64,000 bases of DNA, taken from the NCBI RefSeq assembly GCF_009017415.1, contig NC_092404.1, positions 1,178,001 to 1,242,000 on the forward strand, in the 5' to 3' direction. The DNA is from Aspergillus flavus (Eukaryota; Ascomycota; Eurotiomycetes; Eurotiales; Aspergillaceae). Below are positions 36,236 to 52,885 of the stretch, piece by piece. A model generated the notes under the pieces. It was not told the origin of the DNA. It did no database searches and was given only the letters and a program-made list of their open reading frames with translations. Within the stretch, counting starts at the first letter, position 1, and each line of letters opens with the position of its first letter. Both the position numbers and the translations under genes were made by a program.

Positions 36236-39200
36236 TTAAACACCACGGAACTGGAAACAAAAAAATTCATCAGTAAAGAATCATCACAAGCATCGATCAG
36301 GGAGGAACATACCATTCGCACAACCAAGTACCACAGCGCTCCGATAAACTTGAAGATAGACAATCCCGCAACACTCCAGAGGACGACTGCCATGTAGATT
36401 GTGGATCGCTTGTTCGAATCTTCACTGGTCTTCTCACTCTGATCGAAACGGTCCAAGCCGGCTGCGCTGAGCACGACGGCTCCCAGAGCGAAGTTGCAAA
36501 ACACCCATGCCAGCACGACCGCACTTCGGAATCCCTTGTAGTAATCGGCCTGTCGTTCTTCTTCCGAGATGACCTGTACTTCCTTGGGTGGCTTTTCGGC
36601 AAATTTGGCCAACTCCGTGTCGTATTGGGCGTTCAGATCGCCATCATCCTGCGGAATGTCGACGTCCACCTTGCCGCCAGGCTTCAGGTTCGCGGAGGGC
36701 AGCTTTTCCGCCTTGTCGTCACCCTTGGTACCCCATGTGATATCGTGAGTATTGCAAAACGCATAAATATTCAACACGTTGATATACGTCGGAGTGAGCA
36801 AGATATATTGGATGAACTGTCCCGGGTTAGTAAGACCAGCTGAAGAGCCGGATAGGAGGACTTACGCTGGTGAACATATGCCAGGGATCAAGGAAGATAA
36901 TCGATGCGACAAACCACATGACATACGTTGAGCCCAAGGACACAATGATCGTGAAGAACGTCGAGTTGGTGAACAGATCCGTGAAGGTAAAGCCATCCTG
37001 CTGCACCTCCGTCTGGATAGATTTCACCGTGACGAAAATGCAAGCAAATGCTAAGTAAATCATAATACCAATCCAGAAATAGACCATGGTCATGTAGAAC
37101 TTATTGGATCCGCCCGGGCGATTGCCCAAGGCCAGGACGAAGCACGTTACCAATGTTGCGAGGTAAAGCCACTCGAAAACCACACCAAGCACTTTACCGG
37201 TGGTGCCGAGGAGGTCTTTCTGACCGAGATATGTCGTGAGAATGTGGAAAACCAAGAAGAAATTACCCTGAAATACAAGTTAGTGTGACAGTGGCAGGTG
37301 GAAGGTAGGGTGGTGCTTACAATGCCAAACCAAGCGAACAGCATGTTGATGGTTTGATAGAAAAACTCGATGAGCAACGCGAATTTCCGAATAGCAGAAT
37401 GGTCGCTTCTCCAGATCTGATAGAAATGGGCGATTGCATATACCGCAGCGAAGAAACTGCCGTTCAGCCACCGACGGCGCTGAAGAATGAACTCCGCCAT
37501 CTGATCCGGAACATCGGTCTCGCCAGTAGAAGACTTCACATATTGCAGTAGCCAGCGACAGTTACGTTTGGTGACGATTTCGAAACACAGAATGCGATCC
37601 TCAGCCAGGTACATATTGGCCGTGAAAATACCGGCATTGGCGCCATGCATCTTTTCACCGAGGAAATACCGCTCCAACGGACCTTGGCCGTTCTTATCAT
37701 TCTGTAATGCGACAAACCGGTACGCAGAAAATGCACCAGGAAGCACACTAATGAACCCAAAGGCCGACTCCATAGGTTTGTCGAGGATATTGCTCAGCTT
37801 ATACTCGAAGTTCTGACCAGCAACCAGGGGGTTGAGCAGTTTCTTTCCGTGCGAGAGCATGACTTTGATTTCACCACAAGCCCCTCCACACATCGGCTCC
37901 ACATCGAATGCCTTCCAGAGACGATAGATGGAGTCCTTGCCGGGCTTCGTTCCAGCATCCAGCAGGACACAAATGTTGGGGTCCAGTACTCGACCAAATG
38001 CCTGGAAGAACCAGCGGTGGGAGTTGATCTTCTTCTGATTCTTTTCCTTCAGACAGAAAATCATCTGAACGGGCACTGCCGAGCGTCCCTTGATATGGAC
38101 CTGGGTTCCCTTCAGCTCGAGAGCTATCTGAGTGGTGTATTCGTAGATGTGCGCTGTCACGTCCTTGCCGTTGACTTGTTGCTTAGCAATTCCGTCCTGG
38201 TATACTCCCAAAGCGGCCAACACTGCACGGGTTCGCGGGTTGATTTTCGCACGACCATCGCTGATTACACAGACCACGATCTTCTTCCATGCGTCTTTGC
38301 CCCAGGTCTTGCTATGCGTCCTCGAGCACATATGTTCAATGTTCTTGAATACACCAATCAACGTTCGCGCGAAAAGAAAGTCATCCTCGTTATACATCGT
38401 TACCACGATGAAGAGTTCGGTATGACGGGGCTTGGCGAACAGTTTCTGGCGCAATGTGAAGCGCTCCTCAAAGAAGTCGTTGGGGTCGCATGTTGCGGCG
38501 GAATAACGCATATGTGTGAACTCGTCACGGCCCGGAGGCTCAGCATGAGGAACCTGGTTAAGAAGTTTGGGTGCGATCGGGCAATCTAGAACAAGATTAC
38601 CATTGAATAATTGCACTTCTTTGACCGTTTTCCACCGTCGGATGGGTGCCGGGCTAGGGGTGTGGCCGTCCGCCGGCTCTTCCACTTGGTATTCATCGCT
38701 GTAGGGATCGGGTCCGAATGGATTATCCTGTTGTAGCATGGGAATGCGATCATCGCTATAAGAGTGCTGGTGCTGGTGTTCGGGGTATTGTCCTAAGTCA
38801 TAATCATCATGTGGCGTGACTGTAGGTTGGTAAGGTTGAGTATAATAGGCGTCATGATGTGCCTCGGGATCCACTGCATACTCGTATCCGGGGTAAGACT
38901 GCTGGTGGTGCTGTTCGTAGGCTTCGTTATGACCGTAAGAGTTAGGCAATCTCTCCACTGAATACTGTTGTCCCAAGTTCGTCAGTTACCACACCGTGGT
39001 ATATGTCAGACGGGGATGCTTACCGTTGGTTGCTCGGCCAGTAAATCACTCGAAGGCATATGAAGGCGCTCCTGTGGCCCGTAAGAAACATCTGAGAGCT
39101 GGTAGGCATTCAATGGCCGACCCGGTGACGGAGACCGATTGTTCGTTTGGTGGGGGTTCATCATGGGAGAGTGACTATGGTCGTCCTCCCCATAAGACTC

Positions 39201-45102: not shown

Positions 45103-47151
45103 ATGGTCTCCCGACAAATCCTCGGGGTGCTTGCTCTGGCACTTCTTTGCCTTTTCCAATCATGCGGAGCGCTGCCACTTGAATCCAGAGTTTCACTGTC
45201 CGCTTCTGGTTCTGAAGCTAAACTGGAACCTCGTCTGTTTGGTTTGGGGAAAATAGCGTCTCTTATAGGCAAGCTTGTTGGTAGATCGAAAGGCTCGGGG
45301 GGGAGTGTTGGGGGTAGTCATAGGAAGGAAGAGCCTAAGAAGGAAGAGCCTAAGAAAGAAGAGCCTAAGAAAGAAGAGCCTCCAAAGGAAGAGAAGAAGG
45401 AAGAATCGAAGAAGGAAGAACCGAAGAAGGAAGAACCGAAGAAGGAAGAACCGAAGAAGGAAGAACCGAAGAAGGAAGAACCGAAGAAGGAAGAACCGAA
45501 GAAGGAAGAACCGAAGAAGGAAGAACCGAAGAAGGAAGAACCGAAGAAGGAAGAACCGAAGAAGGAAGAGCCAAAGAAGGAAGAAAAGAAGGAGGAAGCG
45601 CCAAAGGACGGCAAGGCAGAGGACAAGAAGGAAGAAGCGCCAAAACAGCAGTCAGGACAGGGACAACAGCCTAGACAGCAACCAGGAGACCCGACGCAAG
45701 GACAGCAGCTAGGGCAGGGACAGTCCCCAGCGCAGGGACAACCCCCAGTGCAGGGACAAGCTCCAGTGCAAGGACAAACCGCAGTGCAAGGGCAGCTGGC
45801 AGCACAAGAGATAGCACAGCAAGTACCCCCGCAGCAGCAATCAGCACAGCAACAACAGCCAGGGCAAGGACAGCCGAAAGCACAAGATACCACACAACAG
45901 CAAGGATTCCAGCAGCAGCAACCAACACAGAAACAACAGCCAGGGCAGGGACAACAGACAGCACCAGAGACGGCACAGAAATCATCCCAGCAACAACAGC
46001 CAGGGCAAGGACAACAGGCAGCAGAGACGGCACAGCAGCAGCAATCTACACAGCAACAACAGCCAGGGCAGGGACAACAGCCAGGGCAGGGACAACAGCC
46101 TCAATCACCAACACAACAGACATTCGCGCCGCAACAAGCATCGACAGAGCCAGCAAACGTCCACGTAGATAATACCCCTACCAGACAAGATATCTATGGC
46201 TCGGCTGTTCTGGGAGCTGGGATTGGAGCGATTCCTGCCAGTATCAGTGCCGCGACACTTAAAAACGAGAATGAACTGAATAGGGAGCAAAATGCTCACG
46301 AAGGAGAATTGAATAGGCAACAATCTCTCGACCTGGCCAACAAGCAAAATAACAATAATAGTGGTGGTGCCACTAGCCCTGCTCCTCCTGCCAGCCCTGC
46401 TCCTCCGGCCAACCCTGCTCCTCCTGCCGACCCTGCTCCTCCTGCCAACCCTGGAAACACTGGTTATGGCGGCGCCGGTGATACTGGAAGCACTGGCTAT
46501 GGAAACACTGGTAATACTGGCAGTCCCAGCTACGGCAACCCTAGTAATGCCGGCAGTCCTAGCTACGGCAACCCTAGTAATGCTGGTAGTCCTAGCTACG
46601 GCAGTGCTGGAAATACTGCTAATGCAGGCACTGTAGGCACTACTGGCAATGTTGGAAACACTGGATATGGAATTCCTAATACAGCAGGCACTACGGGTTC
46701 TACTGGCACCGTTGGTACTACTGGCAATGCCGGCTATCCCGGAAATACTGCCAACGCTGGTTATTCTGCCAGTACTAATCAGAAGCGAGGGTTTCCACAG
46801 ATTGACCAGGGAGTTCCTCGAGAAATCCAAGAGGTTTATGATTCTTGTAATAAGGACATTGATGGTCCTTCCTATCTGGTCACCTACTATGCAATCAGCT
46901 CTGACTGTAAGTTCTTATTCTCAACTTGAGTATCCTGACCTACTTACTAACAGACTGGGGTTCTAGCTATTCGATTGGATGATGTTCCTCCATCCTGCAT
47001 AAAACTCGCAGAGATCCTCTCTGGTCAGCCTGAACTGTCTTCTAGCGGCCCCGTGCCAACTCCCATTGGTTCTACAAGCATTGAGTATCATGGGCTCAAC
47101 GAGCAAGAAAAAGAGAACATCATGAACTCTCTACATGAGTCGCATATTTAA
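45103..47151 (+). CDS. Secreted low-complexity repeat protein with conserved C-terminal domain
   Basis: Exons 45103-46906 and 46967-47151 give 662 residues. A signal peptide (LGVLALALLCLFQSCGA) leads to a basic segment, then a tandem EEPKK array (residues about 74-160), a Gln/Gly-rich region with GQGQQ units (about 180-350), a short helical patch (NELNREQNAHEGELNRQQ), PAPPA repeats, and a Gly/Asn/Ser/Tyr region with SYGNPSNAGSP repeats. The last 80 residues return to normal complexity and hold two Cys (VYDSCNKD and DDVPPSCIKLAEIL), matching the small secreted neighbour. The splice at 46906/46967 is the only one of two nearby acceptors that avoids a stop. The whole suggests an extracellular or wall-spanning stalk carrying a small C-terminal domain. 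Expression is not shown. Confidence 0.75.
45323..45590 (+). repeat. 15-bp tandem repeat encoding EEPKK
   Basis: Units of AAGAAGGAAGAACCG repeat about a dozen times, nearly identical from 45,410 to 45,570, with more diverged copies upstream. Length polymorphism between strains is expected. Confidence 0.92.
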
Positions 47152-48092: not shown

Positions 48093-48774
48093 ATGACCCG
48101 CGCTGAGCCGGTGACCTTCACAGACGGTCTACCTCTGCCACGCCTCATCGCTTTTGACCTGGACCACACATTATGGCCATTCAAGGTCGACGCGGATGTT
48201 TGCGAGCCAGTCGAGGCTCGCGACAACAATTCATGCGTCGTGGACCGGTATGTCAGAACAGAATCGTGGAGTTCAGTTCCATTAGTTTCGTTTGCCTAAG
48301 CTCTCTCAACCAAATAGACGGGGTAAGTCCTTCGCCTTCTATCCCGCTGTGTCCTCAATCCTCTCCTCCTGCAAGGATCGGTCAATCCCCTTGGCACTCG
48401 CTTCGCGGAGCCATGCTCCCGATTTGGCGCTTGCGATGCTCGAAGCCTTGCACATCAATCTCGCGTCCTCGGATAGCACTGCCCTTAATACTCCCTCTGT
48501 GGGCGCGCGGAACTACTTTGACTACATGCAAATTGTCTCTGGGACTAAAACGCAACACTTTACGCGCATCCATCATGCCAGCGGCATTGCCTATGAGGAT
48601 ATATTGTTCTTTGATGACGAGGCGCGTAACCTCGACGTGGAAACTGAGCTCGGGGTCACATTTTGTCTGATTAGCGGTGGAATAACCAGAGACGAGGTGG
48701 ATCGCGGAGTTAGGGCTTGGCGGAAGCGGAAGGGGATTGCACAGAAGACGACTGATAATAGGTCGTCCGTATAG
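48093..48774 (+). CDS. MDP-1-like HAD phosphatase
   Basis: Magnesium-dependent phosphatase of the haloacid dehalogenase superfamily, MDP-1 branch, which acts on small sugar phosphates or phosphotyrosine in known members. Exons 48093-48247 and 48318-48774 join to 203 residues. All four HAD motifs are seen: nucleophile DLDHT (D22, D24), Ser in ASRSH (about 81), Lys in SGTKTQHF (K129), and the acidic pair in FFDDEARN (151-153). The C-terminus (ITRDEVDRGVRAWRKRK) is the usual fungal MDP-1 end. It converges on the HldE gene 428 bp away. GmhB, the bacterial heptose-bisphosphate phosphatase, is also a HAD enzyme, so this protein is a candidate for that step; this is inference. It may be a housekeeping MDP-1 instead. 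Confidence 0.85.
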
Positions 48775-49202: not shown

Positions 49203-50696
49203 CTACTCGCTGTAACGATTCATGATTTCCTGGATTATTTTAGAGGTAGAAATGCCCTGGTTCGATGGGAGAAGTTCCACCCGTCCCCCATTAGCCTCTA
49301 CAAAGTCGCGTCCGACCACTTGATGCAATTCATAGTCACTTCCCTTGACAAGAAAGTCCGGCTTGATGGCCTGAATCAGATGAAGGGGAGTTTCTTGGTC
49401 GAACAGAACCACAAAGTCCACACATTTTAGTCCGGCCAGAGTCTGAACCCGTTGGGCCTCTGGGACGATAGGTCGACGGTTCCCCTTGATCTGCCGTACA
49501 GAAGAGTCTGAATTGAGCCCCACGAGCAAAAGATCCCCGAGAGCCTTGGCTCTCTGCAAGTAACTGACGTGTCCTGCGTGAAGCATGTCAAAGCAACCAT
49601 TGGTGAAAACAATTTTCGCTGACGGCTGGGACTGGCGCACAGCGTGAATGTCGGATAGGAGTTGCTCGAGGGTTCGATTCTTGCTTGGGCCAAGTTCTCG
49701 GTCGAGCCCATTGATCGAATGGACTTCCACAAGGGAGAGCAGTTCGTCCACGTTAATTGTGCTGATTCCCTTCTTACCAACGGCAAGAGTGCCTGCGTCG
49801 TTGGCCAGCTTTGCGGCCTGATGGACTGAGAATCTGCGGATGGTGAGAGCCCAGGTGAATACTGCAATCACAGTATCTCCCGCACCACTGACATCAGCTA
49901 CTGTTTCTGCATGACCCGGAAAGTGTGTCCTTTGCTGAGAGTCCGAATCATACAACCTTATACCGTTCTGTCCACACGTGACAAGAAGCACGGGTGCCTG
50001 AATCTTGTCCATGAGCTCTCTCGCAGCCACATCGATATCGGACGGAGAGCACAATAATCGACCAGTGGAAAGCTGGAGCTCGTTGATATTGGGCGTCAAA
50101 GCGGTGACACCGCGATAGTGGTCGAGTACCTGAAGTTTCGTATCCGCAATGACCGTCTTCTCCAGCGATTGTGCCTGGCGAATAATCGCCGTTACAATTG
50201 ACGGACTAAGGAAACCCTTATTGTAGTCCGAGAACACTAGACCGGCGGAACCTGCGAGGCACCCTTGGATAGCCTCCAGTACGCGTGACACGTCTTGCTC
50301 CCCCAACGGTGTGGTTACCTCACGGTCAACGCGGACAATTTGTTGCTGTTCTGCAATGATTCGAGTCTTGAGACTCGTTGGCCTGCCAGGGATGACCTGA
50401 ATCAAACTGGTGTCAATTTTGGATTGCGACAGGGAGCGCATCAGTTGTCTGCCTTCTTCATCATCTCCAATCGCTCCAACCAAGACTACTGCCGCACCAA
50501 GTGCAGCAAGGTTGCAGGCTACATTGGCAGCACCGCCGGGATAGAACGCCGCCTCCTGTTGCTCCACAACTGGTACTGGTGCTTCTGGAGAAATCCTTTT
50601 GACTGTCCCACGGATGAATTGGTCCAGAATCAGATCCCCGACGACGAGAAGGGGCCTTTCGGCGTAAGGAAGCGTAGCTGAGTCTTCCGACAGCAT
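49203..50696 (-). CDS. hldE: Bifunctional heptose-7-phosphate kinase / heptose-1-phosphate adenylyltransferase, HldE (RfaE) type
   Basis: In bacteria HldE phosphorylates D-glycero-D-manno-heptose 7-phosphate at C1 and, after a phosphatase step, adenylates heptose 1-phosphate to ADP-heptose, the LPS-core precursor. Here one exon encodes 497 residues, close to the usual bacterial length of about 475. Residues 18-330 are a ribokinase-family (PfkB) domain: VVGDLILDQ, ISPEAPVPVV (35-44), GGAANVACN (54-62), and the catalytic DVSGAGDT (268-275). Residues 360-497 are a nucleotidyltransferase: FTNGCFDMLHAGH (364-376, with the HxGH signature), KGSDYE (451-456) and ISTSKII (482-488). No motif is missing. 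The ATG at 50696 is used; an upstream in-frame TTG would add four residues. The lack of introns in a long gene, among spliced neighbours, and the bacterial architecture suggest horizontal transfer. The PMI paralogue is divergent from it. Confidence 0.93.
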   Translation of the reverse strand: MLSEDSATLPYAERPLLVVGDLILDQFIRGTVKRISPEAPVPVVEQQEAAFYPGGAANVACNLAALGAAVVLVGAIGDDEEGRQLMRSLSQSKIDTSLIQVIPGRPTSLKTRIIAEQQQIVRVDREVTTPLGEQDVSRVLEAIQGCLAGSAGLVFSDYNKGFLSPSIVTAIIRQAQSLEKTVIADTKLQVLDHYRGVTALTPNINELQLSTGRLLCSPSDIDVAARELMDKIQAPVLLVTCGQNGIRLYDSDSQQRTHFPGHAETVADVSGAGDTVIAVFTWALTIRRFSVHQAAKLANDAGTLAVGKKGISTINVDELLSLVEVHSINGLDRELGPSKNRTLEQLLSDIHAVRQSQPSAKIVFTNGCFDMLHAGHVSYLQRAKALGDLLLVGLNSDSSVRQIKGNRRPIVPEAQRVQTLAGLKCVDFVVLFDQETPLHLIQAIKPDFLVKGSDYELHQVVGRDFVEANGGRVELLPSNQGISTSKIIQEIMNRYSE

Positions 50697-51264
50697 ATTA
50701 TCGGCCAATATCCTTTTCGAAAAATGTTGGTCTCTCGATGCATCAGTAATGGAATACGGCCTGGCACTCCTCTAGTAATATATCTCTCATAACTTTATTT
50801 GGTTAAGAGCTGCATTAGTGACTACTCATGCGTCTTACCGGACCAACAATCTCTGCAATTTTACCCTATGGCGTAGTGTGGCGTGTCTCCTCCATAGCTG
50901 AACTGAACCTCAGCTCCCGACGTAGTGGGGGTAAAGAACGCCGATCGATCGTACATACGTGGCACCAGTATACCCTAACCATGGACCCGCGATCCCTCAT
51001 TTAAGAAGCTTTTGTCGATTGGCCAGTAAACCGCAGTAGGATCCGGGAGTGGGGTTCTTGCAGATACGGTGCTAGCCCTTGCGAGAGAGATTTGCAAGAA
51101 GTAGTAAATGGGCATGTGAGGGCAATGCACAAATTTAGGGGTGAACTAATCCGCAGCAAATATTCATTTCCTTTCCTTGGAGTAGTCCTTGAACCACTCT
51201 CGTACGACCTGCTTTCTCGTCAAGAATCATTTGTTTGTGAATCTGGGTTAGTTACTGGAGACCA
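50697..51264. promoter_or_regulatory. Shared upstream region of hldE and the PMI paralogue
   Basis: 568 bp between divergent ATGs, long enough for one bidirectional promoter. I see no specific factor site that I can name. Confidence 0.45.
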
Positions 51265-52885
51265 ATGACCATCACCATACCGACGCAACCACGGGGGAGC
51301 CATTTAAGGCGATTGAAGTGTGGTGGGTTTAGTATAATGCTCCGATGGATAAAATCGTACTGACTGAGCGTCTTAAGGAGTTTCTAACAATGATTGGGGT
51401 AAGGACGTCTCTATATGTGGAGGGGAGACAATTTGAGAATGGAGACTGAAGATTGGCAAAGGAAAGCTTGGAAAACAATCCATAGTGGCCCAGTTTGCTG
51501 TCACCACGTCCGCCGTAGAGGACAAGGCCTTGGATGAGAATAAACCCTATGCTGAGTTTTGGATGGGAGCGCATCCTTCTCTTCCTTCTTATGACCATTC
51601 CACCGGCCAGTCTTTACAAGATGTCCTTAGGGATAACCCACATCTTCTCTCAACCCATGTGAGCCAGAAATTCCGTACGACACTACCGTTTCTATTCAAA
51701 GTCCTTTCCATCAGAGAGCCGCTTTGTATACAAGCTCACCCGGACCGAGATCTTGCTCATGACTTACACGCAAGGGATCCGCTTACATATCCTGGTAAGC
51801 TGACCAGGGGTAGAGTGGTTTTGCCTATACCCTAGTAAAAAGTATAGGGGATAGAAATATATATAACTTCAATTGTAGATTCGAACCATAAGCCCGAAAT
51901 GATTGTCGCGTTAACCCCATTCGAAGCGTTGTGTGGATTTCGGCCCCTGAAAGAAATTGATCGTTTTCTTTCTAGTGTACCACCACTACGAAATCTCATC
52001 AGCGATGGCACTGCTATGGAAGTACGATCTACCTGCGGAAGCGCAGGAGATAGATGTGATCAAAAAAGCGCTGAAATAGCGCTCAAGAGGGCCTGGTCAG
52101 AACTACTGACCGCGCATCCATCACGAGTCCGTTCGTGCGCAGAAGACTTGATCCGCTTCGCGACTAGCAGACCAAGCAACGAATCTTTTGCGGTTGAGCA
52201 TGGAAATCTCACTGATCTTATCCTTCAGTTGAGTGAGCATTATCCCTATGATGTTGGGCTTTTCGCCGTTCTATTCATGAACCACGTCTGCCTAAGCCCC
52301 GGGGAAGCTTTATTTGTGAGATCTAATGAGCTTCACGCTTACCTAAGTGGCGGTATGTTGCTTCTTCTTCTACTACTGATACAGATCTATAATTTTTGAT
52401 CTGCCATATCTAACGGGCTGCTTTCAGATGGTATCGAATGCATGGCCTCATCGGCGAATGTGGTACGGGCAGGATTCTCACGGAAAACCAAGGACGTTGA
52501 TACGCTCATATCGATGCTCAAATATGAATACCTGCCACCCTTCATTGTAAGAACACCGACTCCCTATTTGCGGGTGGCAATGAGTTCTCAGCAATCCACA
52601 TCGGTATTATACGAATCACCCGCCGAAGAGTTTAATATCATCAAAACTTCCCTGGCACCTAGGTCTGCAAGGGCGAACTTCCAAGCGTTTCGTGGCCCTA
52701 CAGTGCTGATATGCACCCAGGGAAGCGGGAAGATCGGCGTAGCAGACCATGCTGAACTGATTGAGTGTGGTTACGTCTTTTTCGTAGGCGCCGGGGCGGA
52801 GATCTTCATCCAGAGTAGCAGTGAGGAACCATTGATCCTGTTTCAATCTTTCTGTGAAATTGAGGAGTGCAACCCCCAATTATAA
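51265..52885 (+). CDS. Type I phosphomannose isomerase paralogue
   Basis: Zinc-dependent cupin isomerase; known members interconvert mannose 6-phosphate and fructose 6-phosphate. Five exons (51265-51322, 51378-51398, 51462-51794, 51879-52352, 52428-52885) join in frame to 447 residues. Exon 2 is only 21 nt and is needed to rebuild the N-terminal LKCGVSNNDWGKLGKQS. The metal ligands are all present: Q117 and H119 (IQAHPD), E144 (NHKPEM) and H290 (ELHAYLSG), as is the catalytic Arg in VVRAGFSRK (R309). The protein ends like eukaryotic PMI, with VFFVGAGAEIF. The gene is divergent from hldE, so a role as ketose-aldose isomerase on sedoheptulose 7-phosphate, replacing GmhA, is an attractive inference. 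Alternatively it is the main PMI of the organism. Confidence 0.88.

Follow-up and report, generated by a model that had tools for sequence, protein, structure and literature searches.

In bacteria, GmhA is the isomerase and GmhB the phosphatase of the pathway to ADP-heptose, a sugar nucleotide that activates immunity. As set out in PMC11573728, the route runs from sedoheptulose-7-phosphate to ADP-heptose in four steps. Enzymes of this kind can no longer be considered exclusive to bacteria, since PMC11461863 and PMC11573728, both commentaries on Tang et al. 2024, describe heptose enzymes that function in archaea, in viruses, and in certain eukaryotes. The eukaryotic holders given in PMC11573728 are dinophytes, arthropods, and molluscs; viruses and eukaryotes lack the phosphatase according to PMC11461863. 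The main texts of both papers give (F/L)XXGXSTT as a motif of heptose nucleotidyltransferases; they contain no mention of Aspergillus, Ascomycota, or yeast, and fungi appear once, with regard to beta-glucan. Among the papers listed in literature searches, no title or opening of an abstract concerns a fungal HldE or a phosphomannose isomerase (PMI) active on sedoheptulose-7-phosphate, and the supplement of Tang et al. may include fungi. As far as the literature was searched, a eukaryotic HldE is not new as a kind, and a fungal cluster that includes candidate replacement enzymes is.

The window, meaning the entire 64,000-nucleotide stretch of Aspergillus flavus DNA that was analyzed (C7:1178001-1242000), contains a bacterial-type hldE gene positioned between two extra paralogs of fungal genes, one resembling type I PMI (PMI-like) and one resembling the HAD phosphatase MDP-1 (MDP-1-like; Table 1). 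We propose, with a confidence that stands at about even, that these genes constitute a three-gene cluster for ADP-heptose, or a similar compound, in which a bacterial enzyme is combined with two fungal enzymes that were repurposed; on sequence evidence, an ADP-heptose cluster is plausible. An earlier, sequence-only reading of the same DNA had interpreted the locus as a bacterial-type HldE in a fungal chromosome, which stands, and had overlooked the two flanking paralogs.

Table 1. Features of the hldE locus (window coordinates)
Feature	Position	Strand	Basis or remark
Extra MDP-1-type HAD phosphatase gene (PF12689), 203 aa, one intron (48248-48317)	48093..48774	+	Pfam; convergent with hldE
hldE-like gene, 497 aa, intronless; N-terminal PfkB heptose-7-phosphate kinase and C-terminal cytidylyltransferase-like adenylyltransferase	49203..50696	-	ORF, Pfam, NCBIfam, structure matches
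C-terminal SNQGISTS, counterpart of heptose nucleotidyltransferase (F/L)XXGXSTT	49242..49265	-	Sequence letters; motif as given in PMC11461863 and PMC11573728
Adenylyltransferase motif CFDMLHAGH (HxGH)	49569..49595	-	Sequence letters
Kinase motif DVSGAGDT (GAGD)	49872..49895	-	Sequence letters
568-base intergenic stretch of the divergent hldE/PMI-like pair	50697..51264	.	Gene coordinates
Divergent type I phosphomannose-isomerase paralog, 447 aa, five exons	51265..52885	+	Head-to-head with hldE; splice sites by inspection
PMI-like exons	51265-51322, 51378-51398, 51462-51794, 51879-52352, 52428-52885	+	Inspection

The hldE frame begins with ATG and comprises 497 open codons, and the protein (analyzed with Pfam and NCBIfam as a 501-aa version with four extra upstream codons) matches PfkB (4.3e-42) and CTP_transf_like (5e-19) in a single chain, with the kinase first. 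The gene is thus the complete, intronless hldE that the sequence-only reading had announced, and all four motifs quoted there are present: GGAANVACN at residues 54-62, DVSGAGDT at residues 268-275, CFDMLHAGH at residues 368-376, and KGSDYE at residues 451-456. The GAGD of DVSGAGDT presumably holds the catalytic Asp of the kinase family, and the C-terminal SNQGISTS deviates from (F/L)XXGXSTT in its first and last letters. The closest solved structures to the two halves are a heptose-7-phosphate kinase (4e84) and a cytidylyltransferase (5x9q). The window protein scored below the NCBIfam cut-offs for full-length HldE (2e-133; 445.5 bits, cut-off 521) and for the kinase domain (313.9, cut-off 345), and above that for the adenylyltransferase domain (197, cut-off 181.5). 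Four other fungal-clade proteins behaved alike, none passing the kinase or full-length cut-off and all four passing the adenylyltransferase cut-off, and among six comparison proteins from outside the fungal clade the cut-offs were passed by five (kinase), two (full-length), and six (adenylyltransferase). A search of the genome (37,736,778 bases in 8 contigs) found one hldE copy, at C7:1227206-1228708, and the encoded protein differs at 2 of 497 residues from an A. oryzae 100-8 record (P0001). Codon usage of hldE correlated with that of three neighbors at 0.31, 0.05, and 0.33, values too noisy to be of use, since the neighbor pieces were partial, one of them was out of frame, and the MDP-1 piece lacked one base. 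HldE is real and intact, and it is probably functional.

For HldE and for each of the two flanking proteins we considered the best 120 homologs, which were available as 90%-identity clusters that hide member species; the HldE and PMI-like searches scored only the candidates with the most words in common. Among the matches listed, HldE proteins with 86-100% identity occur in A. oryzae, A. minisclerotigenes, A. nomiae, and A. caelatus, and proteins with 47-51% identity occur in A. thermomutatus, A. wentii, A. turcosus, and A. hiratsukae. A scan of bacterial and archaeal genomes contributed 38 HldE loci, 23 of which, near full-length, entered a quick tree and six a more careful one. In the quick tree (94 rows, including L022 and L024, which have internal stops), 10 Aspergillus rows, counting the window protein and its 100% match P0002, formed one starred clade together with P0006, P0007, and P0011, and because these three sit within the clade the Aspergillus label requires three changes on that tree. 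The contig carrying P0007 is 308,841 bases long and has a bacterial-style name; P0006, P0007, and P0011 are perhaps from unrecognized fungal contigs. In the careful tree (37 chosen rows), all 10 fungal-clade rows grouped together with 100/100 support and in 100% of 200 bootstrap trees, and their sister group consisted of 10 rows that include a Deltaproteobacteria MAG; both trees were midpoint-rooted, with comparison rows chosen by similarity to the query and many of them metagenome proteins, so they do not assign a donor. In agreement with the affinity claimed by the sequence-only reading, the fungal protein groups with bacterial HldE, in trees that contained no eukaryotic fusions of another function. 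The best reading of these data is horizontal acquisition of a bacterial gene. Since the fungal clade has deep internal splits, the acquisition appears to be old, and fungus-to-fungus transfer may have followed.

The protein has retained nearly all of the residues that characterize its family. A set of 79 HldE rows from beyond the fungal clade, which includes many metagenome proteins and from which L022 and L024 were dropped, has 64 columns with conservation of at least 97%; the window protein keeps 63 of these, and the remaining 12 fungal-clade rows retain between 56 and 63. The single change in the window protein, A302G, is common to 12 of the 13 fungal-clade rows, with a gap in the thirteenth, and positions 265 and 302 are the only ones at which at least 9 of 11 fungal-clade rows deviate from a residue that is at least 85% conserved elsewhere. 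When four section Flavi HldE proteins are compared, 94 columns vary and 403 are constant, and the variable ones have the higher entropy in the 79 outside rows (p=1.6e-9), a comparison that serves, here and for the neighboring genes, as a weaker stand-in for dN/dS. Because variation within section Flavi is concentrated in columns that are variable among other HldE proteins, the gene is apparently under constraint, as the sequence-only reading had supposed when it called selection probable. Two records depart from this picture: the A. nomiae protein (P0004) reads HAEH where the transferase motif HAGH is expected (residue 375, numbered as in the window HldE), and 6 of the 64 conserved columns are gapped in the A. 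hiratsukae model (P0015). Errors in the sequence or the gene model may be responsible, or local decay.

The gene that diverges from hldE across an intergenic stretch that could be a shared promoter is one of at least three type I PMI loci in the genome; of the others, the one on C4 matches the PMI of A. melleus at 84% identity over 336 residues, and the one on C3 shows 32% identity over 351 residues. Its product contains the PMI catalytic domain (Pfam) and keeps IQAHP, HKPEM, and LHAY, which we take to be zinc-ligand motifs, and it is 45-49% identical to 17 aligned ordinary fungal PMIs. Five of its best 120 homologs are close (86-97% identity) and the rest are at most 47% identical; among the matches listed, the close proteins are from A. 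oryzae, A. transmontanensis, A. caelatus, A. arachidicola, and A. nomiae; the models from A. arachidicola and A. nomiae are partial. The section Flavi PMI-like copies carry other residues at many positions that reach 97-100% conservation among 115 ordinary fungal PMIs. D296A, at the Asp that precedes NVVRAGF, and P305R occur in all five section Flavi models (P0123 numbering), while K103E and S106C occur in all three that cover the site; each replaces a residue with a frequency of 1.00 (rounded) in the 115 ordinary PMIs. Since D296A and S106C may affect catalytic or phosphate-binding residues, the PMI-like protein is possibly inactive. In a tree built from 41 of the best 120 homologs and two sequences from the genome (one incomplete), the branch separating the PMI-like clade from ordinary PMIs measures 1.98 and 1.4 changes per column on either side of the midpoint root, and the tips are short. 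Variation among the section Flavi copies falls mainly where ordinary PMIs vary (p=1e-8, using three of the five PMI-like rows). Public PMI-like gene models of A. oryzae and A. transmontanensis (P0121, P0122, and P0124 are concerned) look wrong at the N-terminus, and that of A. arachidicola runs on into the adjoining gene, which encodes a low molecular weight (LMW) phosphatase.

On the other side of hldE, the MDP-1-like gene is one of two MDP-1 loci in the genome, the second, on C2, being 92% identical to an A. parasiticus protein over 164 residues. Two of the best 120 homologs are close, from A. pseudonomiae (90%) and A. pseudocaelatus (85%), and the rest are at most 70% identical. The protein matches PF12689 and keeps DxDxT and FFDDE. 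Seven substitutions (Y25H, W31K, T34A, H35D, K41E, T83S, and N158D) are present in all three MDP-1-like copies at positions that are 98-100% conserved in 98 ordinary ones; the 98 are listed rows of at least 200 aa, and P0242 (198 aa) was added for the residue comparison. Five of the seven fall at residues 25-41, in and directly after the DxDxT motif I, and the ordinary MDP-1 loop FDLDYTLWPFWVDTH is altered at its Y, W, T, and H in all three copies. The stem of the MDP-1-like clade has a length of 0.81, and variation among the section Flavi copies is found mainly where ordinary MDP-1 proteins vary (p=1.8e-5). Strong change followed by constraint in both neighbors fits the adoption of new substrates.

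Among the matches listed (the best 120 for each protein), close orthologs of both neighbors were restricted to section Flavi, to which we assume all seven species with close PMI-like or MDP-1-like proteins belong. A. oryzae, A. nomiae, and A. caelatus are named, among the matches listed, for HldE as well as for a neighbor; A. pseudonomiae and A. pseudocaelatus are absent by name from the HldE and PMI-like matches listed, in which the 90% clusters hide members. Because the HldE and PMI-like records give the same longest-contig value in A. nomiae (215641) and in A. caelatus (86208), the two genes appear to be linked in these species, and the A. arachidicola model, in which the PMI-like protein is joined to an LMW phosphatase domain, reproduces the gene order of the window; linkage outside the window species is suggested by longest-contig values and a single fused gene model. 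No close PMI-like or MDP-1-like ortholog from A. thermomutatus, A. wentii, A. turcosus, or A. hiratsukae was among the matches listed, and therefore generality of the cluster beyond section Flavi is not supported. A rough, post hoc estimate of the chance that the two neighbors of hldE would be a PMI and an MDP-1, based on three PMI loci, two MDP-1 loci, and a presumed total of about 12,000 genes, is on the order of 1e-7, a figure that rises by at least an order of magnitude if all isomerases and HAD phosphatases are allowed. To the right of the cluster lie ordinary genes, encoding an LMW phosphotyrosine phosphatase and COQ7. A chitin synthase gene (37150-38985, minus strand) is located about 9 kb from the cluster, and a long open frame at 45103-46926, with tandem EEPKK-type and Q/G-rich repeats and, by eye, an apparent signal peptide, perhaps encodes a lineage-specific secreted protein.

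HldE covers two of the four steps to ADP-heptose, and therefore an isomerase and a phosphatase would also be required. In the scheme that we envisage, an ancestor of Aspergillus acquired a bacterial hldE and retained it, and in section Flavi the gene was joined by two repurposed fungal paralogs to make one metabolic cluster. The PMI-like cupin enzyme would carry out the GmhA step, converting sedoheptulose-7-phosphate to D-glycero-D-manno-heptose-7-phosphate; the kinase domain of HldE would then phosphorylate C1, the MDP-1-like HAD phosphatase would perform the GmhB step by removing the C7 phosphate, and the C-terminal domain of HldE would adenylylate the product to yield ADP-heptose. The substrates, the product, and the joint action of the three proteins are what we infer. 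In chemical terms a HAD phosphatase would fit the GmhB step, and a PMI would fit the GmhA step because the C1/C2 conversion of a ketose to a manno-aldose is the same, with one additional carbon at the phosphate end: by stereochemistry, D-glycero-D-manno-heptose-7-phosphate should relate to sedoheptulose-7-phosphate as mannose-6-phosphate does to fructose-6-phosphate. Searches of the genome with the GmhB model (TIGR00213), which was positive in 5 of 14 control genomes, gave no match, and a GT9 heptosyltransferase was sought there without success. None of the seven matches to the HldD epimerase model reached its cut-off (best 65.8 versus 274.6 bits). The GmhA-type SIS_2 model (PF13580) gave one weak match (C2:1514367-1514585; 28.4 bits against a cut-off of 27, covering profile positions 8-77 of 138), which is another possible isomerase candidate. 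The wider claim, that molds of section Flavi, including those used in food, make ADP-heptose with a PMI paralog in place of GmhA and an MDP-1 paralog in place of GmhB around a captured HldE, and so possibly possess a fungal ligand of ALPK1, we advance tentatively, as somewhat less probable than its negation.

Alternatively, HldE could act on heptose with its neighbors unrelated to it, the other substrates arising from side activities of housekeeping enzymes and the adjacency being coincidental. HldE does appear to be constrained by itself, and aspergilli outside section Flavi have HldE with no close neighbor orthologs among the matches listed; yet both flanking genes are extra paralogs of the two missing enzyme classes, both changed at near-invariant sites and were then constrained, and their close orthologs were limited to section Flavi among the matches listed. 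We consider coincidence unlikely. The cluster might instead build some other nucleotide sugar, for example a hexose-based one, with all three proteins using a different sugar phosphate, as the kinship of one neighbor to PMI and the scores of all five fungal-clade kinase domains below the heptose-kinase cut-off could indicate. Retention of 63 of 64 highly conserved family positions by HldE, departure of just two of its positions in at least 9 of 11 fungal-clade rows, and loss of several ordinary PMI residues from the PMI-like protein argue against such a switch, which strikes us as distinctly improbable.

Our preferred reading of a functional heptose cluster must also be set against the prospect that hldE is a horizontally acquired relic in the course of decay, with no present function. 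HAEH in A. nomiae, the gaps in the A. hiratsukae model, and the small number of Aspergillus species among the best 120 HldE matches would be expected of a relic, but reading frames that are intact along long fungal branches would not, nor would the concentration of HldE changes at columns that are variable in other HldE proteins (p=1.6e-9) or the same pattern of variation in both neighbors, and we therefore regard decay as very doubtful. That the gene is bacterial in type and intronless could also point to bacterial contamination or misassembly. The sequence-only reading had thought contamination unlikely, and we reject it, together with misassembly, as having practically no chance of being correct: hldE is internal to a contig that reaches at least base 1242000 (and is thus at least 1.24 Mb long), 13 kb or more separates it from each contig end, and the HldE proteins of several Aspergillus species share a clade of their own with the window protein.

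If these molds make ADP-heptose, they would present a fungal ligand to ALPK1, which would be relevant to infection by Aspergillus and to fermented foods. If the proposed cluster is real, a gene of bacterial origin has been brought together with duplicated fungal genes in one unit, and two missing heptose steps have been supplied in a eukaryote by non-homologous enzymes. With its MDP-1-like gene, the cluster further provides a concrete candidate for the phosphatase reported in PMC11461863 to be absent from eukaryotic heptose pathways.

The locus shares features with several known systems and differs from each. The window protein resembles bacterial HldE (RfaE) in domain order, in 63 of 64 conserved positions, and in tree grouping, but it is encoded on a fungal chromosome, has G at position 302 as 12 of 13 fungal-clade rows do, and scores below the kinase and full-length cut-offs. 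The PMI-like protein has the domain family and putative zinc-ligand motifs of type I PMI (1pmi, 5nw7), whereas several near-invariant residues of the latter are replaced. The MDP-1-like protein shares PF12689, DxDxT, and FFDDE with MDP-1 HAD phosphatases (1u7o/1u7p, 2wm8), from which it differs at seven near-invariant positions in all three cluster copies. If our hypothesis holds, the two neighbors perform the same steps as GmhA and GmhB but belong to different families: GmhA is a SIS-type isomerase and PMI a cupin, and GmhB and MDP-1 are separate branches of the HAD phosphatases. In the STTR5 nucleotidyltransferases, which are promiscuous for NTP, the fifth position of (F/L)XXGXSTT is Arg according to PMC11461863 and PMC11573728, whereas SNQGISTS in the window protein has no Arg there. 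Like the NDP-heptose enzymes described, in the same two papers, from archaea, viruses, and eukaryotes, HldE of the window is a heptose kinase/nucleotidyltransferase-type protein outside bacteria. In those eukaryotic NDP-heptose pathways, however, the phosphatase is reported to be absent (PMC11461863), whereas here a candidate phosphatase and a candidate isomerase adjoin hldE.
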